Of a stretch of DNA of 64,000 bases, positions 297 through 55,147 are shown piece after piece. Below the pieces are notes generated by a model. That model had not been told where the DNA came from. It did no database searches and saw only the letters and a list, made by a program, of their open reading frames with translations. Source of the DNA: Actinomycetota bacterium (GTDB lineage Bacteria > Actinomycetota > Acidimicrobiia > Acidimicrobiales > Ilumatobacteraceae); contig WLIV01000010.1 in assembly GCA_009702045.1 (NCBI GenBank), forward strand, positions 1 through 64,000, in the 5' to 3' direction. The translations under genes and the position numbers were made by a program. How positions within the stretch are numbered: the first letter of the stretch is position 1; each line of letters opens with the position of its first letter.

Positions 297-335
297 CAGG
301 TGGCAACAGCGATGCGGCGAGATGACATGAAACAA

Positions 336-348
336 GGATACTCTATTG
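336..348 (+). promoter_or_regulatory. AT-rich promoter-like element GGATACTSTATTG, copy 1
   Basis: GGATACTCTATTG lies 43 bases upstream of the epimerase start. GATACT (337-342) would serve as a -10 box; no convincing -35 is visible. Twelve of its 13 bases recur on the minus strand at 26608-26620, upstream of the acyl-CoA ligase gene, so it may instead be a regulator site. Confidence 0.35.
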
Positions 349-390: not shown

Positions 391-1278
391 ATGCGCGTAC
401 TCATCACCGGCGCTCGAGGCAAGGTCGGATCCTTCGCCGCCGAGGCGTTCCTCGCCGCCGGCCACCGCGTAGTGCTCAGCGACATCAGCCCCGCCCGTTA
501 CGGCCTCACCGGCGAGCGCTTCCGCTACCTGCGCGCGGACCTCACCGACTACGGGCAGACCATCGGCATCGTGATGGCAGCCAAGCCGGACGTCATCGTG
601 CACGCAGCCGGCATCCCCGACAGCTCTCACGACCCGGGCCCGACGATCTTCGCCAACAACTCGCTGGCCAACTTCCACGTCGCTGAAGCCGTCGCCCAGA
701 CCGGCGTCGGGCGCCTCGTCTATCTCTCCAGCGAGACCGCCCTCGGGTTCGTGACCGCCCTGCGTCCGTTCCTGCCCGACTACCTCCCGGTCGACGAGGA
801 GCATCTGCGCCGACCGCAGGAGGCGTATGCGCTCTCCAAGTCGCTCGGCGAAGACATCTGCGACTCGCTCGTGCGACGCTGCGACGCAACGGCTGTCTCC
901 ATCCGTCCGTCGCTGGTGCTGGCCCCGGCCGACTACGCCTTGATCGGTGGCCTCCAACGCGCGACTGGCCGCAGCTTCAACCACTGGTCGTATGTCGACG
1001 TCGAAGACCTGGCCGACCTCATCGTGCTCGCGGCCGCTACACCGACGCCCGGGCACGAGGTCGTCTACGCCGCACAGCCTGACAACCTGCTGGGTGCCTC
1101 GTTCCGCCAACTCGTCGCCGATGCTCTCGGGGATGACGCGCCGCCCGTGCGCGACCTCGAGCGCGAGGACTGCGGCGGCATCAGCATCGCCAAGGCCCGC
1201 CGACTCTTCGGCTGGGCCCCCACCCGCAGTTGGCGCGACCGTACCAACGCGACGAACGACAACGGAGGACACCAATGA
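391..1278 (+). CDS. NAD(P)-dependent epimerase/dehydratase family protein (extended SDR)
   Basis: A 295-residue extended short-chain dehydrogenase. The N-terminal Rossmann fold has the dinucleotide motif TGARGKVG (about residues 6-13) and a YxxxK catalytic pair (YALSK) in the middle, so it should oxidise, reduce or epimerise a substrate using NAD(P). I chose ATG 391 because GAGGGG stands just upstream; a TTG at 346 in frame would put the promoter-like element inside the gene. The stop overlaps the ATG of the aldo/keto reductase (ATGA), so the two are translationally coupled in a three-gene unit with the hydrolase that follows. The substrate is unknown; sugar-nucleotide and steroid-type members share this fold. 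Confidence 0.8.
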   Translation: MRVLITGARGKVGSFAAEAFLAAGHRVVLSDISPARYGLTGERFRYLRADLTDYGQTIGIVMAAKPDVIVHAAGIPDSSHDPGPTIFANNSLANFHVAEAVAQTGVGRLVYLSSETALGFVTALRPFLPDYLPVDEEHLRRPQEAYALSKSLGEDICDSLVRRCDATAVSIRPSLVLAPADYALIGGLQRATGRSFNHWSYVDVEDLADLIVLAAATPTPGHEVVYAAQPDNLLGASFRQLVADALGDDAPPVRDLEREDCGGISIAKARRLFGWAPTRSWRDRTNATNDNGGHQ

Positions 1279-2995: not shown

Positions 2996-3016
2996 CTCGC
3001 GGTACACGCCGAACGC

Positions 3017-3060
3017 GTTCGTGTGCCGCGCCGCGGAGGGCCACAACACGGCACACGAAC
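3017..3060. terminator. Bidirectional hairpin between convergent genes
   Basis: A perfect 12-bp inverted repeat (GTTCGTGTGCCG, then CGGCACACGAAC) with a 20-base loop lies between the stops of the hydrolase (+) and the amidohydrolase (-). There is no long T run, so this is a hairpin-type terminator that could serve both strands. Confidence 0.65.
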
Positions 3061-3066
3061 ATCGCG

Positions 3067-5173: not shown

Positions 5174-5266
5174 AGCTGACACCGTCGATGATCTGAAGTT
5201 GCACCCATGGCGTCGCACACCTGTCGCTTTCCGCTAGACAATTGAACTGTAGGGCAGGTGAGCAAG

Positions 5267-16713: not shown

Positions 16714-19119
16714 ATGGCAGACATCTGCGCGGGACTCAACGTACTCGAGCTCGGCTCGGGCAGTGTGGCCGCTTCGATGGTGGGCATGGTGCTCGCCGAT
16801 GGTGGCGCGCGCGTGCTCAAGATCGAGTCCCCCGACGGTGACCGTCTGCGCACGGTGAACCCCAGTGGCTTCCTGGTCTGGAACCGCGGCAAAGAGAGCC
16901 TCGTCGCCGACCTGCGCACCGCCGCCGGTCAGGCCTCGATAAAGGAACTCGTCGCGCAGGCCGACGTCGTGATCGAGGCATTCACCCCCGGCACCACCAC
17001 CGCGTGGGGTATCGACGCCGACGCGCTGCGAGCGATCAACCCCGCCCTCGTGCACCTGTCGATCACCGGCTTCGGCAAGACCGGGCCGCTGGCCCACCTG
17101 AAGGGCTACGACTCACTGGTCGCCGCCAAGGCCGGCCTGTGGGCTCGCGGCGGCTTTGGTCACCGCGAGGGTGCGCTGCTGTACCCGGTGCCGTGGGGCA
17201 GCTTTGGCGCGGCGATGCAGTCGGTCGCCGGCGTGATGGCCGCATTGCGCGTCCGCGACCTCACCGGTCGGGGCCAAGCACTCGACGCCAACCTCGTGTC
17301 CGGCCTCGACCCGCTCGATTACTTCGTCAGCACGATCGTGCAGTTGGCGGCCAAGAAGGGGGGCGCTCCCAGCGGCGACATGCGCGCATCGATGAGCGCC
17401 AGCCGCTTCGGCGTGCTGCTGGTCACCAAGGACGGCCGCTTCATGCAGACGTCCACGATGCTGCCCCACCAGGGCAAGGCGCTGTGCGAGGTCACCGGCG
17501 TGACGCATGCGCTCGCCGATCCCCGATTCGCGAAGTTGCCGATTTTCGACAGCGCCGATGACGCCCAGGAGTGGGAGGACATGATGCTCGAGGCCACCCG
17601 CGAGCACGACCTCGACTACTGGCTGCCGAGGTTCCTCGCCTCGCCCGATATCGCGTTCGAGGTGGCAGTCACCAGCGAGGAGGGTCTCGACCACCCGCAG
17701 TTCATCCACAACGGCGATGTGATCACCATCGACGACCCGGTGCACGGCCCGATTCGCCAAGTTGGCCCGGTCTGTCATCCCAGAACGACACCGATGCACC
17801 CCACCCGCTCGGCACCAAGGCTCGGCGAGCACGACGGCACGTTCGCGGCCCACGCCTTCCCCGCGGGAGGTCAGCCCACGCCAGCCCACCCGTTCACCGG
17901 TGTCACGATCGTCGAGTTCGGGTACTTCTACGCGATGCCGTACGGCGTGGCAATGGCCGCCTCGATGGGTGCGCGCGTGATCAAGCTGGAAGACGGCAAC
18001 GGCGACCCACACCGCAGCTCCTTCGGTCCCGAGGTTGCCTCCAACAAGACCACCGCCGGCAAGGAGAGCGTGTCGGTCAACCTGCGCACCCCCGAGGGGC
18101 GCAAGCTGGCGCAAGAGATCATCGCCACGGCCGACGTGTTCCTCACCGGCTTCCGCACCGGCGTGGCCGAGAAGTTGGGCCTTGGGTACGAGGATCTCCG
18201 CGCGATCAACCCACGTCTGGTCTACGTGCACGCCGGCGGTTACGGCACCGACGGCCCGTACGCCCACCGCGCGCTGTACGCGCAGGCTGCGCAGGCTGCG
18301 GCAGGTAGCTTCGGCCGCCAGGTGGGTTACTGGTCGGCGCCCGAGCAGAACGCCGACATGAGCGTCATCGAGATGCAGGCCGTCGTACTGCCCCGCCTCG
18401 GCCAGGTCACCGATGGCGACTCGAACGCCGCACTGGCAGTCGTGGCTGCGCTCGGCCTGGCGATCTACCACCAGCAGCGCACCGGCGAAGGTCAGTTCGT
18501 TTCCACCTCGATGATCGCGGGGAACGCATGGGCCTACTCCGACGACTTCTGCTCCTACGCGGGCAAGCCGCCGGCCCAACTGTGCGACGACGAGTACTTC
18601 GGCACCAGCGCGCTCGAGCGTGTCTACACCGGCGCCGAAGGCAGCTGGCTGTGCCTCGTCGTGCGCACCGACGGCGAGTTCGCCCGCATGGCCGGGGTGC
18701 TGAACCCCAGCCTGGCCGCCGACGACCGGTTCTCGACCGCTACGGCCAGAGCCGCGAACGACGGGGCCTTGATCAGTGAACTGCAGAAGGCGTTCAGCAC
18801 ACGCACTGCCAAGGAGTGGGAGGCCACACTCAGCGCCGTACGGGTCGGCTGTGTGGAGGCCGACCTGCGCGGCCAACCGATGGTCACCAGCTTCGAGCCG
18901 GCGCTGCGCGAGGCAGGGCTGACGATCGCGTTCGATCATCCGTTCTACGGCGAGATGGTGCGCGCCGCGCCGCCGATCACCTTCTCGGAGACACCCAGTC
19001 GCGTCGGCCTGCCCGCAGCCCGCGGCCAGCACAACCGTTCGGTACTCACCGAGATCGGTTACGACAGCGCCACCATCGATGCCCTCGAGGCCAGTGGCGT
19101 CATCACACCTCCGGTCTGA
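16714..19119 (+). CDS. Tandem-domain family III CoA transferase (CaiB/BaiF)
   Basis: 801 residues with two complete CaiB/BaiF domains in one chain. Domain 1 begins at LNVLELGSGSVAASM (residues about 8-390) and domain 2 at VTIVEFGYFYAMPYG (about 393-801). Each repeats the family pattern: ADGGARVLKIE / ASMGARVIKLE, then RGKESLVADLR / AGKESVSVNLR, then NPALVHLSITGFG / NPRLVYVHAGGYG. Family III enzymes move CoA between carboxylic acids without ATP. Single-chain double-domain forms are known in actinobacterial catabolic clusters. AAGGGG precedes the start. A mycofactocin-type SDR follows by 35 bases, the same pairing as at 50733-55116. Donor and acceptor acids are unknown. Confidence 0.85.
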   Translation: MADICAGLNVLELGSGSVAASMVGMVLADGGARVLKIESPDGDRLRTVNPSGFLVWNRGKESLVADLRTAAGQASIKELVAQADVVIEAFTPGTTTAWGIDADALRAINPALVHLSITGFGKTGPLAHLKGYDSLVAAKAGLWARGGFGHREGALLYPVPWGSFGAAMQSVAGVMAALRVRDLTGRGQALDANLVSGLDPLDYFVSTIVQLAAKKGGAPSGDMRASMSASRFGVLLVTKDGRFMQTSTMLPHQGKALCEVTGVTHALADPRFAKLPIFDSADDAQEWEDMMLEATREHDLDYWLPRFLASPDIAFEVAVTSEEGLDHPQFIHNGDVITIDDPVHGPIRQVGPVCHPRTTPMHPTRSAPRLGEHDGTFAAHAFPAGGQPTPAHPFTGVTIVEFGYFYAMPYGVAMAASMGARVIKLEDGNGDPHRSSFGPEVASNKTTAGKESVSVNLRTPEGRKLAQEIIATADVFLTGFRTGVAEKLGLGYEDLRAINPRLVYVHAGGYGTDGPYAHRALYAQAAQAAAGSFGRQVGYWSAPEQNADMSVIEMQAVVLPRLGQVTDGDSNAALAVVAALGLAIYHQQRTGEGQFVSTSMIAGNAWAYSDDFCSYAGKPPAQLCDDEYFGTSALERVYTGAEGSWLCLVVRTDGEFARMAGVLNPSLAADDRFSTATARAANDGALISELQKAFSTRTAKEWEATLSAVRVGCVEADLRGQPMVTSFEPALREAGLTIAFDHPFYGEMVRAAPPITFSETPSRVGLPAARGQHNRSVLTEIGYDSATIDALEASGVITPPV

Positions 19120-19980: not shown

Positions 19981-20904
19981 TTAACGAGCGGCGAAGTCGC
20001 GAATCATCTCCGCCAGCTCGACGGGGGTATCACCCTGCACGCTGTGGCCTGCTTCGACGACCTCGATCACCACGGCATCCGGTCGGCGGCGCATCAGTTC
20101 AGCGACGTCGGCGTCGTCCACCACCGACTGAACGCGCATGCCGCGCACCAGCAGCACCGGCGCGGTATTCGCACCCAGCAGGTCCCAGAGTGGCGCCCAG
20201 TTCGGGTGTTCGGTGGCGGTGACTACGCCACCGACGACGCCACCACCGGGGAAGCGGCGATAGCGCCACATCCAGCTGCCGTCCTCGAGCTGGAACGCGT
20301 TGTGCAGGATGCCGCGGCGCAGCGACTCGACCGTGCGTGTGGAGTTGTGCTCGATCGTGCGCGCCAGCAGCTCCTCGAAGCTGGGGAACGTGGCTGGCCC
20401 CCTGATGAAGTCGGAGATGGCCTTCGACTTGTCGGAGTTGACGCCGGGGGTGACGTCGACGATCACGGCGCGCCGCACCAGCTCGGGCGCGTGTGCTGCG
20501 AGTGCGATCGTGGTGAGACCACCCAGCGACATACCCACGATCACCTTCGCGTTCGGCGCGACAGCACGCACCACGTGGGCCACGTCGGCTGCATTGTCCT
20601 GCGGCGACAGACGGCTGGGGTCGGCGACATCATCGGAGTGCCCGTGGCCGGGCAAGTCGATCGCCACCAGGGGACGCCCGAGCGCCAGCGCCACGGTGTC
20701 CCACGTGTGTGCGTTCTGGCCGCCACCGTGCAGGAACACGTACTCGGGCTCGCCCTCGCCCCAGACCAGGAAGCTCACGCGGCGACCTGGTGCGACTTCA
20801 ATCGACTCGCGGCGCACGATCGGCGGCGCGTCGTAAGGGATTCCGTATTCACTCGCGTTCTCATGGAAGTACGCGAACTCGTCGTAGTGGATGCGCTCAG
20901 TCAT
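19981..20904 (-). CDS. Alpha/beta-fold hydrolase
   Basis: 307 residues. The oxyanion loop is HGGGQN (59-64), the nucleophile elbow is GMSLGG with S126, and the catalytic His is in EAGHSVQGD near the end. This is a complete serine hydrolase of the epoxide-hydrolase/meta-cleavage-product hydrolase type; it has the HGGGQ form of the oxyanion motif. It may hydrolyse an ester, a thioester or a C-C bond of a ring-cleavage product. AAGGGG is upstream of the ATG. It is divergent from the acyl-CoA dehydrogenase operon at 21006 and shares its symmetric promoter region. Substrate unknown. Confidence 0.8.
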   Translation of the reverse strand: MTERIHYDEFAYFHENASEYGIPYDAPPIVRRESIEVAPGRRVSFLVWGEGEPEYVFLHGGGQNAHTWDTVALALGRPLVAIDLPGHGHSDDVADPSRLSPQDNAADVAHVVRAVAPNAKVIVGMSLGGLTTIALAAHAPELVRRAVIVDVTPGVNSDKSKAISDFIRGPATFPSFEELLARTIEHNSTRTVESLRRGILHNAFQLEDGSWMWRYRRFPGGGVVGGVVTATEHPNWAPLWDLLGANTAPVLLVRGMRVQSVVDDADVAELMRRRPDAVVIEVVEAGHSVQGDTPVELAEMIRDFAAR

Positions 20905-20939: not shown

Positions 20940-20967
20940 TTGTGACCGGTCGTTCAATAAGTATACT
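20940..20967. promoter_or_regulatory. Divergent promoter region with symmetric AGTATACT box and GACCGGTC palindrome
   Basis: Plus strand: TTGTGA (20940-20945), a 16-base spacer and TATACT (20962-20967) before the acyl-CoA dehydrogenase. The core AGTATACT is a perfect palindrome, so the minus strand reads TATACT as well, toward the hydrolase at 20904. GTTCAA recurs at 20933 and 20952 (19 bases apart), and GACCGGTC (20944-20951) is a perfect 8-bp palindrome inside the promoter, a plausible TetR-type operator. Confidence 0.5.
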
Positions 20968-21005
20968 CATATCCACACCGGCACGCTGATCAGAGGAGCC
21001 ACGGT

Positions 21006-22253
21006 ATGGAGACAGCCCAGACGGTCGCCGCATGGATCGCCGACAACTGGAGTAACGATCTCACGTTGGCCGAGTGGTGGCAGCGGCTCGCCGACGCAGG
21101 CTACGCGTTCCCCACCTGGCCCGCAGGCCTCGGCGGCATGAACGCTTCGGCCGCGCAGGCGCGCCAGATCAGCTCGGCGATCACTGCCGCTGGCGTCATC
21201 GGCGCCCCCATCGGCAACGGTCCGTCGATGGGCGGTCCGACGGTGCTGGCACACGGCACCCCCGAGCAACAGCAACGCTTCGTCGGCCCGCTGGCCCGTG
21301 GCCGCGAAGCCTGGGCGCAGTTGTTCTCCGAGCCCGGCGCAGGGTCCGACCTCGCCAGCCTGGCCACCAGCGCCGTGCGCGACGGTGACGAGTTCGTGAT
21401 CAACGGTCAGAAGGTGTGGAACTCGTTCGCCGACATGAGCGACTGGGGCATGCTGCTGGCCCGCACCGACCCCGATGTGCCCAAGCACAAGGGCATCACT
21501 TACATGATGATCGACATGAACCAGCCCGGAGTCGAAGTCCGCCCGCTGGTGCAAATGAACGGCTACCCGGAGTTCTGCGAAGTGTTCTTCACCGATGCGC
21601 GGGTACCTGTCGCGAACGTGATCGGCAATATCGGCGAGGGCTGGAACGTGGCCAAGACCACGCTGGCGTTCGAGCGCGCCGGCGCCGGTGGCAGCCGCGC
21701 CGCAGGAGCGATCAACATCGGTGCCGGTTCGAAGGCGGGCAACCTCCACCAACCCGTCGGCGAGCTGCTGGCGAAGGCCAAGCAGGAGGCCAACGACCCG
21801 ACGATGCGCACCGAGGTGCTGCTCAGCTCGCGCACGCTGATCAAGATGGCGCGGCAACTTGGGTGCACCACCGACCCGGTGTTGCGCGACCGGCTGATGC
21901 GGTACTACGCCAACAGCCAGGTGTACTCGTGGACCGGACAACGCGGCCGCGACAACGCCAAGTCCGGCCGCCCCGGGCCCGAGGTCTCCACGCTGAAGCT
22001 GCAGATCGCCCAGTTGGCCCACGAGTCACGCGACCTGTCGATGGCGATGCTCGGGGCGGAGGCGACGCTGATGGGGGACGCCACTTTCGAGGGTGGGCGC
22101 ATCCAGCGCGCAGCACTTGCCAGCCCAGTGCCGTCGCTCGGTGGCGGCACGAACGAAATCCAGCGCAACATCATCGGCGAGCAAACCCTCGGGCTGCCGC
22201 GCGAGCCGTCGAACGACAACGTCATCCCATTCCGCGAACTGCGACGATCCTGA
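21006..22253 (+). CDS. Acyl-CoA dehydrogenase
   Basis: 415 residues. LFSEPGAGSDLASLATSA and INGQKVWNSF mark the beta domain, and GGTNEIQRNIIGEQTLGLPREP the C-terminal FAD/dimer motif. It should desaturate an acyl-CoA and reduce electron-transfer flavoprotein. GAGGAG lies before the ATG. First gene of a four-gene unit with a PNPOx-fold protein, a Nudix CoA pyrophosphatase-like hydrolase and an EthD-type protein. The insertion around GRDNAKSGRPGPE in the C-terminal helical domain is typical of actinobacterial steroid-type members. Chain length specificity is not readable. Confidence 0.85.
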   Translation: METAQTVAAWIADNWSNDLTLAEWWQRLADAGYAFPTWPAGLGGMNASAAQARQISSAITAAGVIGAPIGNGPSMGGPTVLAHGTPEQQQRFVGPLARGREAWAQLFSEPGAGSDLASLATSAVRDGDEFVINGQKVWNSFADMSDWGMLLARTDPDVPKHKGITYMMIDMNQPGVEVRPLVQMNGYPEFCEVFFTDARVPVANVIGNIGEGWNVAKTTLAFERAGAGGSRAAGAINIGAGSKAGNLHQPVGELLAKAKQEANDPTMRTEVLLSSRTLIKMARQLGCTTDPVLRDRLMRYYANSQVYSWTGQRGRDNAKSGRPGPEVSTLKLQIAQLAHESRDLSMAMLGAEATLMGDATFEGGRIQRAALASPVPSLGGGTNEIQRNIIGEQTLGLPREPSNDNVIPFRELRRS

Positions 22254-24123: not shown

Positions 24124-24927
24124 TCACCGCCGACGCGGCAACACACCCTGCTCGACCAGTTCGGCGAAGTCGATGATGCGACCGGAGACCGCTGTCGGCT
24201 GCTCGAGCATCCAGCACACTGCGGCGGCCACTTCCTCGGGGGTGTGCACCGACTCCACCGGGTCGTCGAACCCCGTGGCAGTGTGCATCAGGTGCCATCC
24301 TTCGGTGGACATCTGCCCCGCGCGGAGGTTGTTGAACGCCACGCCGCGGCTGGCGAACTCATCGTGCAGGCCCACCGTCATGCGCTCGAGGGCGGATTTC
24401 GTGACGCCGTACATCAACGGTGCCCCACCGGTCTGATACTGGTGAGCGCCCGTCTCGGCATCCGAGTAGGCACCCGCCTCCGAGCCGATGTTCAGCACAC
24501 GGCCGTCGCCACGCTCCAGCATCCCCGGCAACAGACCCTGGCACAGTCGCACCGGAGCGAGCACGGTGATACCCATCCCTGTCGCCCAGCGGTTGAGCGA
24601 CACCTCGAAGAACCCACCTGCAGGGGTGTACGACGCGTTGTTCACCAGGATGTCGCACCGGCCCTTCCACGCGAGCACCCGCTCTACGATGGCGTCGACC
24701 TGCGCCAGGTCGTTGAGATCGGCCTGCACGGTGATGGCCTCAGCGCCGATGGCGTCGAGCTCAGCCTGTACCTGCTGGAGTGTTCCTGGCATCACACGAT
24801 GTGGGGTGTCGGTGGTACTGCGGCCCACTGCCACCACGTGAGCACCCCGACGCGCCAGCTGAAGTGCGATCGCCCGGCCGAGGCCACGTGTCGCACCGGT
24901 GACCACAGCGACGTGTCCTTTGATCAT
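24124..24927 (-). CDS. SDR family oxidoreductase
   Basis: A 267-residue classical SDR. It has TGATRGLG, an NNAS in place of NNAG (LVNNASYTP) and the catalytic YGVTK. A long insert near ADLNDLAQ and GSEAGAYSDAETGAHQYQTGG before the active site gives it a larger substrate cover than FabG. The ATG overlaps the stop of the acyl-CoA ligase upstream (ATGA), so the two form one unit controlled from the promoter region near 26600. It probably oxidises a hydroxy group on the CoA ester made by the ligase; the compound is unknown. Confidence 0.8.
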   Translation of the reverse strand: MIKGHVAVVTGATRGLGRAIALQLARRGAHVVAVGRSTTDTPHRVMPGTLQQVQAELDAIGAEAITVQADLNDLAQVDAIVERVLAWKGRCDILVNNASYTPAGGFFEVSLNRWATGMGITVLAPVRLCQGLLPGMLERGDGRVLNIGSEAGAYSDAETGAHQYQTGGAPLMYGVTKSALERMTVGLHDEFASRGVAFNNLRAGQMSTEGWHLMHTATGFDDPVESVHTPEEVAAAVCWMLEQPTAVSGRIIDFAELVEQGVLPRRR

Positions 24928-26570
24928 GCCGTTACTCCGGTGACGGGCAACAGCACTGGAGCCTGCAACCCCTCCGGCAGTTCGCCGGTCTCCAGCCACT
25001 TGCGCAACGTCGGCTTGACCACTTTGCCCATCGCGTTGCGCGGGTACTGCTCGACGACGTACCACTCGACCGGCCACTTGTAGCGGGCGAGTTGCTCCTC
25101 ACAGGTGGCGGCGAGCACCGCGCGCGACAGGTCGGCGCCGGCTGCGCCCGCGGCGGGCAGGACGAAGCCGACGACTTCTTCACCCAGCCGCGGATGTTCG
25201 CGCCCGACGACCACAATCTCAGCCACACAGGACAAACCCTCGACGGCACGCTCGACCTCTGCCGGATAGACGTTCGCACCGCCGCGGATGATCAGGTCGG
25301 AGCGACGGTCGAGCACCCACAGGTTGCCCTCGGCATCGAAGCGGCCGACGTCGCCGGTATGCAGTACCCCGCCGCGCAGCGCGGCCTGTGTGGCCTCGGG
25401 CCGATCCCAGTAACCGAGCATCGTGGAGTAGCAGTTGGCGAAGTACCCGATGGGCGTGGGGCCGACACAGATCTCCCCGTCGTCCCCCGCGGGGACCTCC
25501 GCACCATCAGCGTCGCGAATCGTGACCGAAACCTGTTCGTGCTCGACACCCGACGATCCCAACGGTCCGGCGGACCCGTCAGCAGCTCCACCGGTCACGC
25601 TCGTCGGCGCCTCGGTGAGCCCGTAGCCGAAGCCGAAGTCCGACCCGAAATGCTCGCGATACCGCTCGCGCAAACCTTCGGGGCACTTTGCCCCGCCGAC
25701 GCCCAGATGTGTCAGTGATGCGAGCGAGGCCGGATCGATATCGGGCCGGGTCAACAGGTCGTACACCGTCGGTGGGGTCGAGTACATCCGTTGCACGCCG
25801 AACTCCTGAATCCACTCGGCGACACCGACCGCATCGATGCGATCCATCGGCACGATGACACCGCCGTTGAGCATCGTCTGCACGGTCGACAAGACCTGCA
25901 TGTTCAAGATGGTGAGCGGAAGACACACACCCTGTATCAGCGCCGCGGGGTCGCGCCGCAGCAGCGCCGCTCCGGGCAGCAACATGTTGTGCTGACTGTG
26001 CACGACACCTTTCGGCGAACCCGTCGTACCGCTGGTGTACGAAATCGCCGCCGGTGCCAGCGGGTCGACGTCCCCTTGGGGTCGGCTCGCCGGGTCGGTA
26101 TCCCGCCACCAGGACCCGGGGTCGGTGATCTCGACGGCGATCGCCGGCACCGCGGTCCACGGGCGAACGGAGGTGATGGTCTGTTCGGTGGCGACGAGCA
26201 GGGACGCACCGCTGTCGGCGAGGAGGAAGCACTTCTCCGGGACGGCCAGGTGGGTGTTGATGCCCACCCAGATCGCGCCGAGACGCATCGTGGCGAGGAA
26301 GGTGATCACGACATCGCTGGTGTTCGGAAGGCAGGACGCCACCCGATCGAGCGGCCGGACGCCAGCAATGTGCAGCGCAGCTGCGGCGCGGTCGACGGCA
26401 CCGCGCAGTTGTTCATAGGTGTACGACACGCGACGGTCGGCAAGTGCCGGTCGCGACCCGTACGTCGCTGCCGCGTGGTCGACGAGCGATGCAACAGAGG
26501 CAGGAACCCCTGGAATTGCCTGCGGCTGGCGCCGAATCAAACCGTGGACGGCCAAGAACTCGTCACTCAT
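24924..26570 (-). CDS. AMP-dependent acyl-CoA synthetase/ligase
   Basis: 548 residues of the ANL (acyl-activating) superfamily. The P-loop is YTSGTTGSPKG, the A5 motif GYGLTEAP, the A7 motif HTGDVGRFD, the A8 hinge DRRSDLIIRGGANVYPAEVE and the A10 lysine PRNAMGKVVK, so it should be fully active: acid plus ATP gives an acyl-adenylate, then acyl-CoA. I chose ATG 26570 with GCGGAG upstream. It opens the minus-strand ligase/SDR unit and is divergent from the fused GntR regulator. A medium-size hydrophobic or cyclic acid is a reasonable substrate class, by context only. Confidence 0.85.
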   Translation of the reverse strand: MSDEFLAVHGLIRRQPQAIPGVPASVASLVDHAAATYGSRPALADRRVSYTYEQLRGAVDRAAAALHIAGVRPLDRVASCLPNTSDVVITFLATMRLGAIWVGINTHLAVPEKCFLLADSGASLLVATEQTITSVRPWTAVPAIAVEITDPGSWWRDTDPASRPQGDVDPLAPAAISYTSGTTGSPKGVVHSQHNMLLPGAALLRRDPAALIQGVCLPLTILNMQVLSTVQTMLNGGVIVPMDRIDAVGVAEWIQEFGVQRMYSTPPTVYDLLTRPDIDPASLASLTHLGVGGAKCPEGLRERYREHFGSDFGFGYGLTEAPTSVTGGAADGSAGPLGSSGVEHEQVSVTIRDADGAEVPAGDDGEICVGPTPIGYFANCYSTMLGYWDRPEATQAALRGGVLHTGDVGRFDAEGNLWVLDRRSDLIIRGGANVYPAEVERAVEGLSCVAEIVVVGREHPRLGEEVVGFVLPAAGAAGADLSRAVLAATCEEQLARYKWPVEWYVVEQYPRNAMGKVVKPTLRKWLETGELPEGLQAPVLLPVTGVTA

Positions 26571-26607: not shown

Positions 26608-26633
26608 CAATACAGTATCCTGGATGCCAGGAT
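26608..26633. promoter_or_regulatory. Divergent promoter with inverted repeat (candidate GntR operator)
   Basis: GGATACTGTATTG on the minus strand (26620-26608) resembles the promoter-like element at 336-348. It partly overlaps a perfect inverted repeat ATCCTGG-ATG-CCAGGAT (26617-26633). Seven-base arms with a three-base centre, placed between a GntR gene and its divergent neighbours, fit an FCD-type GntR operator. Confidence 0.5.
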
Positions 26634-26712
26634 CGATGCATACCGGTGCTGCAGATAGCATGCGTCACCGTTTGGAGAGCACGTTGCGCGGCACAACCGG
26701 GATGACAACCAC

Positions 26713-28146
26713 ATGGTGAGCACCGACGACCGAGCCGCAGCGACCAACGCGATGCCGCAGGATCGAAAGCTCGCGTCACGTCTGGCGAGTCAGATCATGC
26801 GCGATCTCCAGGCATCCGACTGGACCGTCGGGGCCGTGATCGGGTCGGAAACTGAGTTGCTCGAGCGCTACGCCGTCAGCCGCGCCGTACTCCGCGAGGC
26901 GGAACGACTGCTGGAACACTTCGGAGCCACCACCACGCGGCGCGGCCCGGGCGGCGGGCTCATCGTTGCCGCACCCTCCACGGGCGCCGTGGTGCAGGCA
27001 GTGATGGTGTACCTCACGTACACGGGTATCTCCCTTGGCGATCTCATGGAAGCCCGCACGTGCCTCGAACGCACGATCACTCGGGCAGCGGCGCTCCACG
27101 CCACGGAGGAGCAAGTCGAGGCCCTGCGCCAACGGGTTCGTGAGGAACAGTCGCGCAGCACCTCAGACCCCACCGATCACCATGTGCTGCACACGATGAT
27201 CGGTGCCGCTGCGAATAATCCAGCGGCGGAGTTGTTCATCGACATCCTCGGACGGCTCACGGCACGGTGGTCGTACCCCAGCGTCGCCGAGACGACGAAT
27301 CTGGAGGCACTGCGCAGTTCTGGCCGTGCGCATGAATTGCTCGTCGACGCGATCACAGCAGGGAACAGCTCCCTCGCAGAACGACGGATGAACGCCCACC
27401 TCACGGCGCTCGGCGACTGGCTGGGCCGCAATCGCGAATCGCCGAGATCGCTCGAAGGTGTGCTCGAGTCGGCCGATGACGTGAAGCTCGGCACGAAGGT
27501 TGCTCGACTGCTGATGGTCGACATCGTCGACCGTGGCTGGCCGATCGGTGAAGTGCTGGGCTCGGAGGCTCACCTCGTGGGGCAATACGGCGTCAGCCGC
27601 GCTGCGCTGCGCGAGGCTGTCCGCCTTCTCGAGTACCTACGCGTCGCCGCGATGAAGCCGGGGCCGCGCGGCGGTCTGATCATCACCGAGCCGAGTGTCG
27701 ACCCAATTGTCGAGGCCGCAACGGTGTTCCTCGAGTACCGCCGCATCAAGACTGGCCAGCTGCTGGAGTTGCGGATCGGCCTCGAGACAGATGCAATCGC
27801 GCTCGTCGTCGAACGTGCGACCGACGACGACATCGAATCACTCAGGTCCCTCAATGAAGACGCGACGCTGCGCCACTACGCAGGTTCGATCGCCGATGAT
27901 CTTCATCTGCGGATTGCCGACCTCAGCGGGAACCCGGCAATCGCACTCTTCGTTCGCGTCCTTGCCCATCTCACCCGCGTCCATGCCACCGGAACGAACG
28001 TCTCCAACCGACAGCGCGTGGCCTACGCCGCCGAATCTGGTCACGCGCATGATGGCATCGTCGACGCGATCGCCCAGCGCGACACCGCCTTGGCACGCCG
28101 CCGGATGATGAAACACCTCGACCTGATGGCCCCGGTGCTGCAATAG
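26713..28146 (+). CDS. Fused double GntR (FadR/FCD) transcriptional regulator
   Basis: 477 residues, about twice the normal FadR-type length. Two GntR-FCD units follow one another. DNA-binding domain 1 is at residues 18-92 (GSETELLERYAVSRAVLREAERLL, then RRGPGGGLIV). DNA-binding domain 2 starts near residue 255 (GSEAHLVGQYGVSRAALREAVRLL, then KPGPRGGLII). Each is followed by an FCD-like helical domain; the second FCD appears shorter. A single chain could act as a built-in dimer. There is no strong ribosome site; ATG 26713 is the best start. It is divergent from the ligase/SDR unit, with a perfect inverted repeat between. Repression of that unit, relieved by an acyl-CoA or acid, is the likely role. 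Confidence 0.85.
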   Translation: MVSTDDRAAATNAMPQDRKLASRLASQIMRDLQASDWTVGAVIGSETELLERYAVSRAVLREAERLLEHFGATTTRRGPGGGLIVAAPSTGAVVQAVMVYLTYTGISLGDLMEARTCLERTITRAAALHATEEQVEALRQRVREEQSRSTSDPTDHHVLHTMIGAAANNPAAELFIDILGRLTARWSYPSVAETTNLEALRSSGRAHELLVDAITAGNSSLAERRMNAHLTALGDWLGRNRESPRSLEGVLESADDVKLGTKVARLLMVDIVDRGWPIGEVLGSEAHLVGQYGVSRAALREAVRLLEYLRVAAMKPGPRGGLIITEPSVDPIVEAATVFLEYRRIKTGQLLELRIGLETDAIALVVERATDDDIESLRSLNEDATLRHYAGSIADDLHLRIADLSGNPAIALFVRVLAHLTRVHATGTNVSNRQRVAYAAESGHAHDGIVDAIAQRDTALARRRMMKHLDLMAPVLQ

Positions 28147-28174: not shown

Positions 28175-28972
28175 TTACTGCTCCTGGCGCATCTTCAGCA
28201 ATCTGCGGCGAGTCCCGGCGATCCATTCGTCGTAGTTCGTTGCCTTGCGCAGGAACGAGTCCGCCACCCGAGTGTGCGGCAACACGAGGAACGGTTCGGT
28301 GGTCATCATTGCGTCGATCGTGAAATTGGCGACGTCGCTGGACTTCATCACCTCGCCGAGGGCGCCCATATCCGGAGGTGTACTCGAGATGTCGCCGGCC
28401 TCGAGGCCGAACATCCCGGTGTACACCGCGTTCGGGCACAGGCACGAGACACGGACGCCGAGATGGCCGTAGTTCAGGGTCACCCACTCGGCGAAGCCCA
28501 GCGCGCCGTGCTTGGTGAGGGTGTACCCCGGTGCCGACGGGCCGGTGATCAGCGACGCGGACGAGATCGTCTGCAGCAGGTAGCCGCCACCACGCTCGAC
28601 CATCGAGGGCACCACTGCCTTCGCCGCCCACACATGCGCCAACAGGTTCACATCGACGATGCGCTGGTAGTCCTCCACAGAGCCGGTGAGACCCGCTGTC
28701 GGCGCGTCGCTGTAGCCGGCGTTCGAGCAGAAGATGTCCACGGGGCCGTACTCGGCGGTGGCGGCCGCGACGAGCGCATCGACTGCGGCAGCATCGCCGA
28801 CATCCGTGGTGACACCGAGCGCCCCGAGACGAGACGCCACGAGGGCGACACCGTCGGAGTTCACGTCGGAGATCACCACCTTCGCGCCCAACTCCGAGAA
28901 GCGCGAGGCCAACGCGCATCCGATACCGCTCGCGGCACCAGTGACCACGACAACCTTGCCAGCTACTTCCAT
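28175..28972 (-). CDS. SDR family oxidoreductase
   Basis: 265 residues. It has TGAASGIG, SNAG (usual NNAG) and the catalytic YTLTK. The C-terminal 40 residues (TRVADSFLRKATNYDEWIAGTRRR) are longer than in FabG. I chose ATG 28972 because GGAGGA lies seven bases upstream; several upstream GTG/ATG codons in frame have no such site. It is divergent from another SDR at 29081, with the promoter and candidate operator at 29026-29073 between. It likely interconverts an alcohol and a ketone on a hydrophobic substrate; no more can be said. Confidence 0.8.
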   Translation of the reverse strand: MEVAGKVVVVTGAASGIGCALASRFSELGAKVVISDVNSDGVALVASRLGALGVTTDVGDAAAVDALVAAATAEYGPVDIFCSNAGYSDAPTAGLTGSVEDYQRIVDVNLLAHVWAAKAVVPSMVERGGGYLLQTISSASLITGPSAPGYTLTKHGALGFAEWVTLNYGHLGVRVSCLCPNAVYTGMFGLEAGDISSTPPDMGALGEVMKSSDVANFTIDAMMTTEPFLVLPHTRVADSFLRKATNYDEWIAGTRRRLLKMRQEQ

Positions 28973-29025
28973 CTCGGAATCCTCCATCATCGTGGTCACG
29001 GCGTTCGTCACCGATACCGGTTACG

Positions 29026-29875: not shown

Positions 29876-30481
29876 GTGATGACGAGGCTGGAGACACGCA
29901 GGGCCTTCGCCGCCAGCGAGATCGCGCGCACCGCAATGGCCCTGTTCGCCGAGCGCGGGTTTCACGCCGTCACCGTGGAAGAAATCGCTGAGGCGGCGGA
30001 GATCTCGCCCCGCACGTTCTTCCGGTACTTCCCGGCGAAGGAAGATGTCGTCCTGCTCGAGCAGCGACGGATGCAGGAGCGGTTGGTGGATGCCTTCACC
30101 GCTCGACCAACTGAGGAGCCGCCGATCACTGCGCTCCGCAACGCGTACCTCGCCACTTCCGACGTCCCCGCCAATCGGCGCAAGGCGGTGCTGCAGCACA
30201 ACCGGGTACGCCTCGACGTGCCTGCAATCCTGGCGCGCGGCTACGGCGAGGATGTGTTCGGCAATGACGCGATCGTCGATGCGCTCGCGTCGCGAATGGG
30301 CGTCGACTCGGTCCACGATTCGCGGCCCGCAATCGCCGCTGCAGTGATGGCGGCGGCGGCAGCGACCGCCTTCGACCGTTGGCTGCGCACGACCGGGCGC
30401 GGCAATCCGGCCGACGCCGTAGGAGTCGCCCTCGCGATGGTGGAGTCCGGTTTGCGCTCAATGGACACACCGTCCGACTGA
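29876..30481 (+). CDS. TetR-family transcriptional regulator
   Basis: 201 residues. The helix-turn-helix lies at about residues 20-60 (AVTVEEIAEAAEISPRTFFRYFPAKEDVVLLEQ), a form common in actinobacterial TetR proteins of the MftR/TetR_C_17 type. GTG 29876 has GGAGGT eight bases upstream; ATG 29879 is an alternative. It is co-transcribed with the SDR at 29081 and probably acts on the operator-like repeats in the 28973-29080 region, controlling both divergent SDR genes. It ends just before the promoter of the next SDR. Confidence 0.85.
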   Translation: MMTRLETRRAFAASEIARTAMALFAERGFHAVTVEEIAEAAEISPRTFFRYFPAKEDVVLLEQRRMQERLVDAFTARPTEEPPITALRNAYLATSDVPANRRKAVLQHNRVRLDVPAILARGYGEDVFGNDAIVDALASRMGVDSVHDSRPAIAAAVMAAAAATAFDRWLRTTGRGNPADAVGVALAMVESGLRSMDTPSD

Positions 30482-35224: not shown

Positions 35225-35427
35225 GCGCCCCTCACGATCGATGAAGCACCAACACAACACGCCACGCTCATACCCCCCGGGACACGGTTCGGCCGCGCCG
35301 ACGTGCCGGAGAAAACGCTACACCATTGTCCTCTTTGTGGCAGTTGGCGCAGTCGGCGGATTGGGGTTGATTCAGGACACTCAGTAGTCTCAGCCGCTGA
35401 CGTCGACATGCCGGAGGATCTCCCACG

Positions 35428-36111
35428 ATGGAGAATTTGCAGAACGAGTTCGTAGTGAACCGCCCGATCGAGCAGGCCTGGGCAGTGCTCACCGACCTGG
35501 AGCGCATCGCGCCGTGTCTTCCTGGCGCGCAGCTACAAGAGATCGAGGGCGAGTTCTACCGCGGCGTCGTCAAGGTCAAGCTGGGCCCGATCTCCACCGC
35601 CTTCAAGGGACAGGCCCAGTTCCTCGAACGCGACGATGCCGGCCACCGCGCCGTCCTTCGCGGCGAGGGCCGCGACACCGGCGGCAAGGGCAACGCCGAC
35701 GCGTTGATCACCGCTGAACTGCAGTCACTCACCGACACCACCACGAAGTGTGTCGTCACCACCGAGTTGCGCGTCACCGGCAAGGTCGCCCAGTTCGGTC
35801 GCGGCATCATGGGCGATATCAGCGAGAAGCTGATGACCCAGTTCGCCAACAACCTCAACACGATGCTCGACGCCGATCAGACTCCGGCCGTCGAAGCGAC
35901 GACCACACCCGCCGTCGACGCCGAACCCACAGTCGTTGCCGTTTCCGGCGAGGCACCCGCACCCGCACCCGCGGTGCGCACGGTGAACGGCCCGGAGGCT
36001 GCACCCATTCAGCTCAGTGGCCTCGCCGGTGGTGCAGTGCTGAAGCGGGTCGTCCCGCTGCTCGCCGCTGTCGCCGCGATCGTGGTCGCCGCGGTGCTGA
36101 TCTGGGGTTGA
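35428..36111 (+). CDS. CoxG-like SRPBCC protein with C-terminal membrane anchor
   Basis: 227 residues. An SRPBCC (START-like) domain fills residues 1-150 (FVVNRPIEQAWAVLTDLERIAPCLPGAQLQEIEG is the CoxG signature). A Pro/Ala-rich linker follows, then one hydrophobic helix at the C-terminus (VVPLLAAVAAIVVAAVLIWG) for membrane attachment. In CO dehydrogenase clusters CoxG recruits the enzyme to the membrane. Here it precedes CoxL/M/S-like genes and should play the same role. GGAGGA precedes the ATG. The L subunit has its own promoter 12 bases after the CoxG stop, so the four genes may be one or two transcripts. Confidence 0.85.
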   Translation: MENLQNEFVVNRPIEQAWAVLTDLERIAPCLPGAQLQEIEGEFYRGVVKVKLGPISTAFKGQAQFLERDDAGHRAVLRGEGRDTGGKGNADALITAELQSLTDTTTKCVVTTELRVTGKVAQFGRGIMGDISEKLMTQFANNLNTMLDADQTPAVEATTTPAVDAEPTVVAVSGEAPAPAPAVRTVNGPEAAPIQLSGLAGGAVLKRVVPLLAAVAAIVVAAVLIWG

Positions 36112-36122
36112 CCAACTCGGCC

Positions 36123-36150
36123 TTGAGCCAATGAGTTATATAAGTGTACT
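36123..36150 (+). promoter_or_regulatory. Promoter of molybdenum hydroxylase large-subunit gene
   Basis: TTGAGC (36123-36128), a 16-base spacer and TGTACT (36145-36150), with the recurring AAGTGTACTC element as -10. ATG 36159 is eight bases downstream, so the message would be leaderless or nearly so. Confidence 0.55.
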
Positions 36151-36158
36151 CTGCGACA

Positions 36159-38486
36159 ATGAGCTCCCCGGTTGCAGCGCGTTTCGTCGGCTCGGCGGTC
36201 CACCGAAAGGAGGATCGCCGTCTCCTGACCGGCCATGGTCAGTACGTCGCTGACGCCTCGGCGCCGCGCATGGTGCACGCGGCCTTCTTGCGCAGCGAAC
36301 ACGCCAAGGCGCGGCTCAACAGCGTCAACATCGAGGCCGCCCTGTCGGCCCCCGGCGTCGTCGCCGTGTACCTGTGGTCCGACTTCCACGAGAAGTTCGG
36401 CGAGGCGTGGCATGCGATGCTCGGCCAGGAACTGGTCGTCCCGCCGCCGCTGGCGATCATGGACGTGCGCTACGTGGGCGACCCGATCGCCCTGGTGATC
36501 GCCGAGAGCCGCGCTCTCGCCGAGGATGCATGCGGCCTGATCGAGGTCGACTACGAAGCAGAACAGGCCACCGTCGATTACGCCACGGCAGCTGCCGACG
36601 GCAATGTGGTCCACGCCGCGTGGGGCCTGCCGTCGAACGTGATGGTCGACATGCCGTTCACACCCATGTCGCCCGACCTCGACGAGACGTTCAACTCGGT
36701 GCAACATGTGGTCGAGACCACCATCATCCAGAACCGCTACCTGTGCGTCCCGATGGAAACTCGCGGCGTGCTCGCATCCTGGGTTCCGGGCCTCGAGGAA
36801 CTCGACCTGATTGTCTCTACGCAGTCGGTGCACGAAACCCGCAACTTCTTCGCCCGCTACCTCGGTCTCGATGAGGGTGCCGTACGTGTGAGCGCTCGCG
36901 ACGTCGGCGGCGGATTCGGCCAGAAGATGTTCGTGTTCCGCGAGGAGTGCGCCGTCGTGCTGGCGACGAAGCTGCTCGGTCGCCCGGTGAAGTGGATCGA
37001 AGACCGTCTGGAGAACCTCACCAGCGCAGGCCACTCGCGCAACGAACTGGGCAAAGTCCGCATGGCGATCAGCGCCGACGGCATCATCGAGGCGATCACC
37101 GTCGACCACGTTGCCGACGTGGGTGCCTACACACCCTGCCCGGCCGTGATGGACCCCACGCTGCTGCCCGGGCCGTACCGCATCCCCCGCCTCGGTTTCT
37201 CCACGCAGATGGTGTGGACCAACACGATGGGCAAGGCCGCCTACCGCGGCCCATGGATGTTCGAGACAACGGCCCGTGAGATGGCCATCGACATCGCCGC
37301 CCGCCAGATCGGGATGGACCCCGCAGAACTGCGTCGCCGCAACCTGCTCTCGCTCGCCGAACTGCCATTCACCTCGCCCGGCGGGAAGGTGTTCCAGGAG
37401 ATCACCCCGCTCGAAACCCTTGAGCAGGCGCTCGGGATGCTCGGCTACGAGGAGTTCCGTAAGGAGCAGGCTGAGGCCCGCGAGCAAGGCCGTTGGCTCG
37501 GTGTTGGCATCTGTGTCTATGTCGAACCCACCTCGATGGAGCAGGCGACGCTGGGCACCGAGGGCGCCACGATTCGCATCGACTCCAACGGCAAGGTGGT
37601 GGCCTACCTGAGCACCAGCTCGCACGGACAGAGCGTCGAGACGACGATGGCGCAGATCATCGCCGACGATCTCGGCGTCGCCTACGACGACGTGACGGTG
37701 GTGCAGGGCGACACACAATCGACGCCGTATGGTCCCGGCACCGGCGGCAGCCGCACAGCGGTCATCGCCGGCGGCGCGGCCCACGACGCAGCAGTCGCCG
37801 TGCGCGACAAGGTGCTCGCCATCGCGGCGCACATGATGGAGGCCGCCCCGGAAGATCTGCAGATCGCCGAAGGCGTGATCGCCGTACGCGGCACACCGGA
37901 TCGTTCGCTGACGATGAAGGAAGTGGCCACCCAGGCGTACACCAACGCCCACACGCTGCCGGGCGACGTGGGCAGCGGGCTGGAAGCCACGATCCGCTTC
38001 AAGCCGACGCGGTTCCCCACGTGGTCGAACGCGACGCACGTGTGCGTCGTCGAGATCGACCCCGACACGTTCATCCCCCGCATCCTGCGCTACATCGTGT
38101 CGGAGGACTGCGGCAAGATGATCAACCCGCAGGTCGTCGAAGGTCAGATTTTCGGCGGTGTCGTACAAGGGCTGGGCGGTGTGCTCTACGAGGACTTCCG
38201 CTACGACCCGGATGGCAACCCGCAGACCACGACGTTCCTCGACTACCTGCTGCCCACCACCGGCGAGACGCCGCTGATCGAGATCGGCCACATCGAGTCC
38301 GTGTCCACCACCAACCCCGGTGGTTTCAAGGGGATGGGTGAAGGCGGCGCGATCGGCGCCCATGCAGCGGTCGCCAATGCCGTTGGCGACGCGCTCGCAC
38401 ACCTCGGTGTGAATGTGACGAGCACGCCCCTCGGCCCCGAGGACATCTTCCAACTCGTGCAAGCCAGCCAGAAGGAGCGCGCGTGA
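36159..38486 (+). CDS. Xanthine-dehydrogenase-family molybdopterin-binding (CoxL-like) subunit
   Basis: 775 residues, full length for the molybdenum-cofactor subunit of three-part hydroxylases. GGGFGQK (Moco contact) and the C-terminal GMGEGGAIG with the catalytic Glu are present. The active-site loop reads AYRGPWM (residues 361-367). Form I CO dehydrogenase has AYxCSFR and form II AYRGAGR, so this is neither; a hydroxylase of a heterocycle, aldehyde or other organic molecule is more likely than CO oxidation. ATG 36159 is preferred over GTG 36144, which lies in the promoter. M and S subunits follow with overlaps of four bases. No maturation genes (CoxD/E/F) are in the window. Confidence 0.85.
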   Translation: MSSPVAARFVGSAVHRKEDRRLLTGHGQYVADASAPRMVHAAFLRSEHAKARLNSVNIEAALSAPGVVAVYLWSDFHEKFGEAWHAMLGQELVVPPPLAIMDVRYVGDPIALVIAESRALAEDACGLIEVDYEAEQATVDYATAAADGNVVHAAWGLPSNVMVDMPFTPMSPDLDETFNSVQHVVETTIIQNRYLCVPMETRGVLASWVPGLEELDLIVSTQSVHETRNFFARYLGLDEGAVRVSARDVGGGFGQKMFVFREECAVVLATKLLGRPVKWIEDRLENLTSAGHSRNELGKVRMAISADGIIEAITVDHVADVGAYTPCPAVMDPTLLPGPYRIPRLGFSTQMVWTNTMGKAAYRGPWMFETTAREMAIDIAARQIGMDPAELRRRNLLSLAELPFTSPGGKVFQEITPLETLEQALGMLGYEEFRKEQAEAREQGRWLGVGICVYVEPTSMEQATLGTEGATIRIDSNGKVVAYLSTSSHGQSVETTMAQIIADDLGVAYDDVTVVQGDTQSTPYGPGTGGSRTAVIAGGAAHDAAVAVRDKVLAIAAHMMEAAPEDLQIAEGVIAVRGTPDRSLTMKEVATQAYTNAHTLPGDVGSGLEATIRFKPTRFPTWSNATHVCVVEIDPDTFIPRILRYIVSEDCGKMINPQVVEGQIFGGVVQGLGGVLYEDFRYDPDGNPQTTTFLDYLLPTTGETPLIEIGHIESVSTTNPGGFKGMGEGGAIGAHAAVANAVGDALAHLGVNVTSTPLGPEDIFQLVQASQKERA

Positions 38487-41360: not shown

Positions 41361-41398
41361 CACGCGCCCACTGCTGTTGCTGGTGTGACGCTGTGCTG

Positions 41399-41428
41399 TT
41401 CGGTACCCATGCCCCATAAGAGTACACT
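41399..41428. promoter_or_regulatory. Symmetric divergent promoter (GAGTACACTC box)
   Basis: Plus strand: TTCGGT (41399-41404), an 18-base spacer and TACACT (41423-41428), with ATG 41435 six bases downstream (leaderless crotonase). The box GAGTACACTC has matching arms GAGT/ACTC, so the minus strand reads TGTACT toward the ligase gene. One -10-like box may serve both directions. Confidence 0.5.
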
Positions 41429-41434
41429 CATCAC

Positions 41435-42262
41435 ATGGACGCCGCCGCGGTGAAGATGGACACAGCGGACGTCGAGGAGCACCTGCTGGTGGCCCACGAC
41501 GGCCCAGTGATGACCATCACGCTCAACCGGCCCCGGCAGCGCAACGCCATCACCAAAGAGATGATCTCGGGGATCGCCGCTGCTGCGCGCGCTGCCGGGA
41601 ATGACGACCGGACGCGGGCTGTGCTGATCACATCCAACGGCGACGACTTCTGCGCCGGGATCGACCTCGTACAGTCGAACGCCGAGCAGACCAAGCCGCG
41701 CACCGGGCACCTCGAACGCCGGATGCAGTATGGCGCGCACGAGATGATCCTCGAACTCGACGCCCTGCAGGTACCCGTCGTCGCCGCCGTGCGCGGCTGG
41801 GCGGCCGGAATCGGCAACATGATCGCGCTCAGCGCCGATGTCGTCGTTGCCACCCCTTCCACGAAGTTCTGGGTGCCCATGGTGAAGCGGGGCTTCACCC
41901 CCGACAGCGGCAACACCTGGCTGTTGCCCCGCCTCGTCGGCCTTGCCCGCGCGAAGGAGATGGTGCTGCGCGGTGAACCCGTGGACGGACGTCAGGCCGT
42001 CGAGTGGGGCCTGATCACGCGGTGCGTACCGGAGGACGAACTGGACAGCACCGCCGCCACGCTCGTGCACGAGTTCGCGAACGCGGCGACAGTCGCGATC
42101 GGGCTGTCGAAGAGGCTGTTGCACGCGAACCTCGCGGTCGACCTGCGCACGGGCCTGCACAACGAGGCGATGCACGAGGAGTTGGCCACTCGCTCCGACG
42201 ATTTCAAGGAGGGGATGCGCTCCTTCGTCCAGCGACGCACCCCCGACTACACCGGCCGCTGA
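41435..42262 (+). CDS. Enoyl-CoA hydratase/isomerase family protein (PaaG-like)
   Basis: 275 residues of the crotonase fold. Oxyanion-hole segments are CAGIDL and the RGWAAGIGNMIAL glycine turn. The catalytic segment reads GFTPDSGNTWLLPRLVG, which matches isomerase-type members (PaaG-like) with one Asp in place of the two Glu of hydratases, so double-bond isomerisation is more likely than hydration. ATG 41435 is six bases after the -10 box, so the message would be leaderless. A second crotonase and an APH-type kinase follow at short distances. Confidence 0.8.
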   Translation: MDAAAVKMDTADVEEHLLVAHDGPVMTITLNRPRQRNAITKEMISGIAAAARAAGNDDRTRAVLITSNGDDFCAGIDLVQSNAEQTKPRTGHLERRMQYGAHEMILELDALQVPVVAAVRGWAAGIGNMIALSADVVVATPSTKFWVPMVKRGFTPDSGNTWLLPRLVGLARAKEMVLRGEPVDGRQAVEWGLITRCVPEDELDSTAATLVHEFANAATVAIGLSKRLLHANLAVDLRTGLHNEAMHEELATRSDDFKEGMRSFVQRRTPDYTGR

Positions 42263-47625: not shown

Positions 47626-47737
47626 TGCACGCCTCGTGATCTGTGGCACTAATTCGAGCTGGCATCGGTGGACTCCCCCAAGTCAGAGCGCTACCGCGAG
47701 TGCGGAAGCTGCGGAGATGAAATCAATTGCACTGCGG

Positions 47738-50560: not shown

Positions 50561-50603
50561 TATCTTCCCCCTTGTGAGTAGCGGCCAACTGCCGCTGCCG
50601 AAC

Positions 50604-50633
50604 ATATTAGGTGTACTCATTCAGCTCTGTCCA
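50604..50633 (-). promoter_or_regulatory. Promoter of binding-protein gene 2
   Basis: Minus strand: TGGACA (50633-50628), an 18-base spacer and TAATAT (50609-50604). GAGTACACC lies in the spacer, as in copy 1. Confidence 0.65.
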
Positions 50634-55116: not shown

Positions 55117-55147
55117 GGTCGACCCTCCTGGTGAGATCTTCTGCATG

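Follow-up and report, generated by a model that had tools for sequence, protein, structure and literature searches.

A tandem GntR-FCD regulator predicted to act as a covalent pseudo-dimer on a 12-bp operator in an actinobacterial catabolic cluster

Related regulators and the architecture of the fused chain

Switches built of GntR and FCD domains usually act as a pair of identical proteins (a homodimer), and dimeric repressors are locked into symmetry. By sequence and by fold, each half of the protein described here is matched best by FCD (FadR) subfamily regulators of the type of LldR/CGL2915 (PDB structure: 2di3), NanR (6on4) and Streptococcus agalactiae GntR (6az6), which share its domains, its fold and its metal triad. 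One GntR-FCD unit per chain is the norm in this subfamily, and the PDB matches from it have one GntR and one FCD domain in at most 265 residues, whereas the fused regulator contains two of each. E. coli FadR, like the fused regulator, joins a GntR winged helix to an all-helical effector domain, but it is an acyl-CoA sensor and, in the available sections of PMC7674646, is described as lacking the metal histidines.

Precedents for such a chain are found in other families. SarS of Staphylococcus (MarR/SarA family) has two homologous winged-helix halves per chain and is a natural single chain standing in for a dimer (PMC10715151, in part), although it belongs to another family and is without the FCD sensor domain. 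PafBC of actinobacteria is likewise a natural fusion of two HTH-bearing halves, but it is a WYL-domain activator derived from two distinct genes, and its motif is described as non-palindromic in the available part of PMC6789036. Like SarS, the fused regulator is a single chain that carries a winged helix in each of its two homologous halves, and pseudo-dimeric action is predicted for it. No description of a GntR or FCD tandem layout was found in the open-access literature; the architecture is real, widespread and apparently undescribed, though of a known kind.

The gene occupies positions 26713..28146 (+) of the window, i.e., of the whole stretch of 64,000 nucleotides that was analysed. It encodes 477 amino acids with the layout GntR-FCD-GntR-FCD, as seen from the ORF list, from Pfam searches with the whole protein and its two halves, and from intact orthologues (see below). 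The halves align with each other at 37% identity (E 6e-40). The first winged helix (residues 21-86, 26773..26970 +; recognition helix about 55-69, with Arg57 and Arg61) is followed by the first FCD domain (residues 110-231, 27040..27405 +; metal triad His160/His207/His229). A linker of low identity (residues about 236-256, 27418..27480 +) leads to the second winged helix (residues 261-325, 27493..27687 +; recognition helix about 294-308, with Arg296 and Arg300) and to the second FCD domain (residues 349-470, 27757..28122 +; metal triad His398/His446/His468). The Pfam stretches are residues 21-80 and 261-316 for GntR, and 110-231 and 349-470 for FCD. PF00392 (GntR) scores 54.9 bits on the whole protein and 27.7 and 30.5 bits on the halves, passing the curated cut-off of 27; for PF07729 (FCD) the scores are 95.2, 52.0 and 62.4 bits against a cut-off of 24.3. 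Two GntR and FCD sets in one chain of 477 residues, as proposed in the initial annotation, are thereby confirmed, but the second FCD, described there as shorter, is not so: both FCD matches are 122 residues long and cover profile positions 1-124 of 125. The FadR_C acyl-CoA sensor family, PF07840, stays below its cut-off (11.7 bits versus 23.6, E 0.25, in the N half only), as does the NanR model NF003011 of NCBIfam (136.9 bits versus 260), and the WYL family is absent from the Pfam list of the protein up to E 1.

Among 27 aligned fused members, mean pairwise identity is 86% and 87% in the two recognition helices, 39% in each FCD domain and 18% in the linker. Arg61, Arg296 and Arg300 are present in all 27 rows and Arg57 in 26; His160, His207, His398, His446 and His468 are found in every row, and His229 in 26 of 27. 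The histidines are spaced by 47/22 residues in the N half and 48/22 in the C half, which matches the 48/22 spacing of the LldR triad, His148/196/218. The metal triad of TM0439 is His134/174/196, and E. coli FadR has Phe149/Tyr193/Tyr215 at the places of the metal histidines (PMC7674646 and PMC4746285, in part). Both FCD halves carry a three-histidine site, a feature of many members of the subfamily, and metal binding is predicted for both. An additional metal ligand, an Asp located four positions ahead of the first His, was considered and dropped, as this residue is not conserved and the literature describes three histidines.

AlphaFold models were obtained for the window protein (mean pLDDT 86.1, pTM 0.86) and for the Thermomonospora member L048 (mean pLDDT 86.9, pTM 0.86); pLDDT of the linker is low in the former and below 50 in the latter. 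By our own estimate, pTM nearer to 0.5 would be expected for freely placed halves. The structure prediction proposed in the initial annotation thus places the halves confidently relative to each other in both models, and a pTM of 0.86 is as expected of a packed pseudo-dimer and compatible with an intramolecular pair. The best match in a fold search, which tested mainly residues 15-244, was 6az6_A (Z 19.0, rmsd 2.5 over 203 residues), and the fold matches each cover a single half of the model. At E <= 1e-6, 12 PDB sequences were matched; none of them is a fused protein, and the longest has 265 residues. Because the DNA-binding helix and the FCD metal site are conserved in each half, and because the halves are confidently placed in the models, a covalent pseudo-dimer seems to be the best reading of the fused regulator.

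Distribution and history of the fusion

We searched 61 genomes (own, genus, family and order), of which 8 matched at E <= 1e-20. Full-length double matches were found in G000, the 3.65 Mb genome of the window, and in two close relatives, G007 (81%) and G014 (79%), and the divergent CoA ligase and convergent short-chain dehydrogenase (SDR) recur as neighbours of the fused gene in both relatives. In a further close relative, G009, the regulator is 96-97% identical and sits in two overlapping contig-end pieces, residues 1-245 and 218-477. G014 also carries a second fused regulator, 38% identical (L010, G014:C3, 1486-2886 -), with AGTACCCT immediately before its start.

A scan of one genome per species, from which the best 80 of 259 relatives were kept, extended the family. 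Counting matches of more than 400 residues in all loci collected, there are at least 84 distinct double-length ORFs, the window's included; three of 87 (L002, L003 and L059) had been removed as duplicates of L015, L016 and L058. The search for other GntR-FCD-GntR-FCD proteins suggested by the initial annotation was thus productive, and the hits are nearly all actinobacterial (76 Actinomycetota and one Acidobacteriota MAG among the doubles listed). Of 31 family loci, 23 are flanked by relatives of the ligase, dehydrogenase, SDR, hydratase or CaiB genes found in the window. The frequency of fused regulators across genomes is low. In the class sample, 8 of 395 genomes match at 1e-50, four of these with full-length doubles, and in the phylum sample 6 of 396 match at 1e-70, both samples omitting some genomes known to hold a fused regulator.

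The initial annotation had named a frameshift or misassembly as a danger to its reading. A frameshift, chimera or misassembly fusing two genes might be suspected from the division of the G009 gene between two contigs; these contigs, however, stop inside the gene with overlapping coverage, and the G007 and G014 orthologues are intact. Given these orthologues and at least 84 doubles, nearly all of them actinobacterial, a frameshift or chimera is excluded, and we assign this explanation a negligible probability.

In a first tree of 66 half and single-chain rows, the N and C halves separate with two exceptions: L011, a single chain, groups with the N halves, and L006, a tandem, branches outside. 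A smaller tree of 60 rows, from which L006 and L011 were omitted among others, has the N halves as one group (83/80); the C halves do not, but a single C clade is not rejected (p-AU 0.386). N or C halves are not monophyletic in every half-tree. As the N and C halves mostly sort apart, one old fusion would be the simplest reading, with L006 possibly a second, independent one. L006 (G024:C39, ORF 1486-3063 -) represents a second kind of GntR-FCD tandem, with halves branching outside the main N and C groups. In L098 and L101, GntR-FCD ends C-terminally open frames of about 750 amino acids with no further Pfam match, and these long frames may be readthrough of a non-coding frame.

A candidate 12-bp operator

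The initial annotation also drew attention to a perfect inverted repeat, ATCCTGG-ATG-CCAGGAT, in the divergent promoter of the regulator. The repeat indeed exists, at 26617..26633, and is the sole perfect match in the 3.65 Mb of G000. With 2 mismatches allowed there are nine further places in this genome, as compared with one forward and one reverse match for the reversed control; of two such places inspected, one is within a gene and the other near a gene start. The right arm of the repeat is present only in G009 (96-97%) and absent in G007 and G014 (79-81% orthologues). Of the original interpretation, the fused double regulator stands, and the perfect repeat as its operator was rejected. The right arm may be an extra half-site, since weaker additional half-sites are common near GntR palindromes (PMC4494728, section 17).

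We infer instead that the site of the fused regulator is a conserved 12-bp quasi-palindrome, WVAGTRYMCTND. In the regulator/ligase divergent promoter, the proposed operator is ACAGTATCCTGG at 26612..26623 (+), the right half of which overlaps the left arm of the repeat. Its core AGTATCCT, at 26614-26621, is kept in G009, G007 and G014, and, unlike the right arm of the repeat, AATASAGTATCCT is retained in the promoter alignment with these genomes. The divergent gene, 24924..26570 (-), encodes an AMP-forming acyl-CoA ligase (Pfam), with the start placed at ATG 26570 and the longest ORF from 26747.

A symmetric 12-bp matrix, built from 7 sites of G007 and G014, was scored on the window. The best score, 19.9, belongs to TAAGTATACTCA at 20958..20969, between a hydrolase gene (19981-20904 -) and an acyl-CoA dehydrogenase gene (21006..22253 +), with a counterpart in G007, G009 and G014. 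It is followed by CAAGGATACTCT at 333..344 (16.7), upstream of a gene for an NAD-dependent epimerase/dehydratase (391..1278 +) that is preceded by a corresponding site in G009 and G014 as well; by AGAGTACACTCA at 41419..41430 (14.9), between genes for a CoA ligase (39819-41417 -) and an enoyl-CoA hydratase (41435..42262 +); by TAAGTGTACTCT at 36141..36152 (14.3), at the start of the gene for a molybdopterin (xanthine/CO dehydrogenase-like) large subunit (36159..38486 +, longest ORF from 36144), with counterparts in G007 and G014; and by the site in the regulator's own promoter, fifth in the window with 11.6. These five proposed operators are all intergenic, on a hand-set map in which intergenic DNA makes up 5.4% of the window, and the next hits, 33913 and 57557, are both within genes. 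In 20 sets of Markov controls, the best score had a mean of 11.8 and a maximum of 16.7. None of 60 column-permuted matrices reaches the mean score of the five hits (15.5 versus at most 15.0), and two of 60 have four of five hits in intergenic DNA. Only the site at 41419 is an independent prediction, because the other four have orthologues among the training sites; it has no counterpart in the training set, and a similar site is found in the matching region of G014. A matrix made from the window sites and run on G014 gives 20.0 for the Mo-dehydrogenase site and 15.9 for the site in the ligase/hydratase region. Two tentative weak sites, at 35372..35383 upstream of a CoxG-like gene (35428-36111; score 8.6) and at 50608..50619, where a gene for a periplasmic binding protein starts (49262-50620 -; 7.1), are within the chance range of the control.

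The shorter pattern AGTATMCT is found at 5 places in G000 (3 of them in the window), 4 in G007, 5 in G009 and 7 in G014. Its bare count is not raised over the reversed control (strand hits 6 versus 10 in G000, 6 versus 4 in G007, 6 versus 2 in G009, and 9 versus 6 in G014), and only its placement is telling: 13 of the 21 places are at four promoters recurring in at least two genomes, namely the regulator's own (4), that of the acyl-CoA dehydrogenase (4), of the epimerase (3) and of the Mo-dehydrogenase (2). The rest are at a paralogous dehydrogenase/ligase pair (3), beside another FCD gene (2), or unassigned (3). In the window, there are 4 strand hits as against 0.28 expected. The pattern TASAGTATCCTSG, with at most 1 mismatch, occurs at two places in G000, in the regulator's own promoter and upstream of the epimerase gene, and a control pattern likewise at two; the G014 match lies upstream of the same epimerase gene despite a different neighbour on the other side. 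At G000:C14:3949, AATAGTATCCTGTTTAA lies between the paralogous acyl-CoA dehydrogenase and ligase genes and is kept in G009 and G014; it is possibly a distant member of the regulon.

Farther afield, fused genes of Actinomadura, Pseudonocardia and Streptomyces are preceded by AGTATMCT at a distance of at most 600 nt. Of 41 representatives (below 80% identity; L093 was left out of an earlier upstream count), 7 have the relaxed pattern AGTRYMCT in the 300 nt upstream of the gene, so most members are without such a site there; that number is reached by 28 of 3000 permuted patterns. No common palindrome of at least 6 pairs was found within 350 nt upstream across the family. The FadR-subfamily operator consensus is NyGTM-N0-1-KACNy, in which GT and AC are usually 3 nt apart (PMC4494728, in part). 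Of the predicted sites, AGTATACT fits this consensus and AGTATCCT does so in one half only, the GT-AC gap being 2 nt. Half-site types in the family loci, which are related and not independent, number 9 for AGTATACT, 14 for AGTATCCT and 2 for AGGATCCT; these counts are about as for independent half-sites, and the idea of an enforced operator asymmetry was dropped. Single-chain relatives have comparable sites: L099 has a 12-bp site, TGAGTATCCTCA, nearby, and AGAGTGTACTCT is located at an acyl-CoA dehydrogenase promoter (L177, G000:C12, 2346-2357) about 6 kb from single-chain L011. A palindrome of the same size near single-chain and fused relatives argues that the double chain replaces a homodimer.

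Fused genes of Streptomyces, Nocardia and Amycolatopsis (L019, L026-L041, L046, L049, L068) share TAGACTGrGGATCCGcAA just upstream of the start, which consists of a -10 box and an unexplained GGATCC element. A merger of this element with the window motif as SAGKATCCKS gave 8 of 81 hits within 300 nt upstream (0.96 in shuffles) and was dropped.

Proposed mode of action and gene content of the cluster

We suppose, with moderate confidence, that the fused protein is a single-chain pseudo-dimer that represses the CoA-thioester catabolic cluster via the 12-bp site and is released by a carboxylate. The sequences show a chain in which an old duplication-fusion has brought together two winged helices and two FCD domains, all of them retained. 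The models and the conservation suggest that the FCD halves pack like the protomers of an ordinary FCD dimer, which would place both recognition helices on one quasi-palindrome. Comparative evidence suggests that the chain recognises the predicted WVAGTRYMCTND at its own and about four other promoters of the cluster, and it would repress these promoters from a site overlapping the promoter region. Judging by the triads, a carboxylate may bind metal in one or both FCD halves, whereupon DNA would be released; this carboxylate is probably the free acid activated by the CoA ligases of the cluster. A free carboxylate is likelier than a CoA ester, because both halves have the triad of the FCD carboxylate sensors and the acyl-CoA sensor FadR is without it in the available sections of PMC7674646 and PMC4746285.

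It is possible that the two FCD halves have diverged into two sensors. The fuller version of this idea, in which the fusion allowed the halves to specialise, so that two metal-dependent pockets recognise two acids of one pathway and the winged helices read unequal half-sites (AGTA/AGGA), is more tentative, and we would give it a minor share of the probability; the half-site counts given above speak against its DNA part. If true, it would make the protein a two-input switch, impossible for a symmetric homodimer, and the family a widespread, undescribed actinobacterial class of such switches. A little less probable still is a dimer of doubles, with two fused chains and four winged helices binding two operators cooperatively or by looping. 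Several predicted operators along the same cluster would suit it, a tetrameric GntR protein, Atu1419/VanR, is known (PMC7797058, in part), and the right arm of the repeat may be an extra half-site of the kind seen near GntR sites (PMC4494728, section 17); but the top five hits put a single 12-bp site at each promoter of the window, and the extra arm of the regulator's own promoter is missing in G007 and G014.

Equally doubtful, in our estimate, is the notion that the 12-bp sites are -10 elements or belong to another regulator and that the fused protein acts elsewhere. AGTATACT does include TATACT, a -10-like hexamer, and TATCCT also resembles a -10 box; but AGTATMCT, with five places in 3.65 Mb and three of these in the window, is therefore not a general promoter element. 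As for other owners, the window contains a single-chain FCD gene (5258-6046) and a TetR-like gene (29876-30481), and one AGTATCCT place adjoins another FCD gene (G000:C56). Against this, each of the four genomes has the exact core in the promoter of the fused regulator itself, no top matrix hit adjoins the gene at 5258, and AGTATMCT also precedes fused members in the three genera mentioned above. That one half alone is active, the other being a scaffold or a degenerate copy, is very unlikely: the second wing in the window's clade is KPGPRGG and not RRGPGGG, and at residue 316 three of the 27 rows have Pro and 24 have Arg, but the arginines of the recognition helices and the metal histidines are near-invariant in both halves.

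The natural and widely kept fusion allows each half to be mutated alone, which makes the need for both sensors and both DNA readers of an FCD dimer directly testable, and two-input biosensors could be built on it as a scaffold. For the large, uncharacterised cluster of CoA-thioester catabolism in this uncultured acidimicrobial lineage, the predicted operator would define a regulon for the first time. By Pfam, this cluster contains two CoA ligases at the predicted sites, an acyl-CoA dehydrogenase, an enoyl-CoA hydratase and SDRs, one of which (28175..29011 -) is convergent with the regulator; it also contains a Mo-hydroxylase set, CaiB-type transferases and a branched-chain-type ABC transporter. 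None of the listed NCBIfam models reached its cut-off with the cluster proteins tried. A 913-aa ORF at 44911-47649 unites two branched-chain-type permease stretches with an ABC ATPase, and the long ORFs at 16714-19116 (801 aa) and 52807-55287 (827 aa) match CaiB-type CoA transferases; the former has two Pfam stretches and is another fused tandem in the same cluster.
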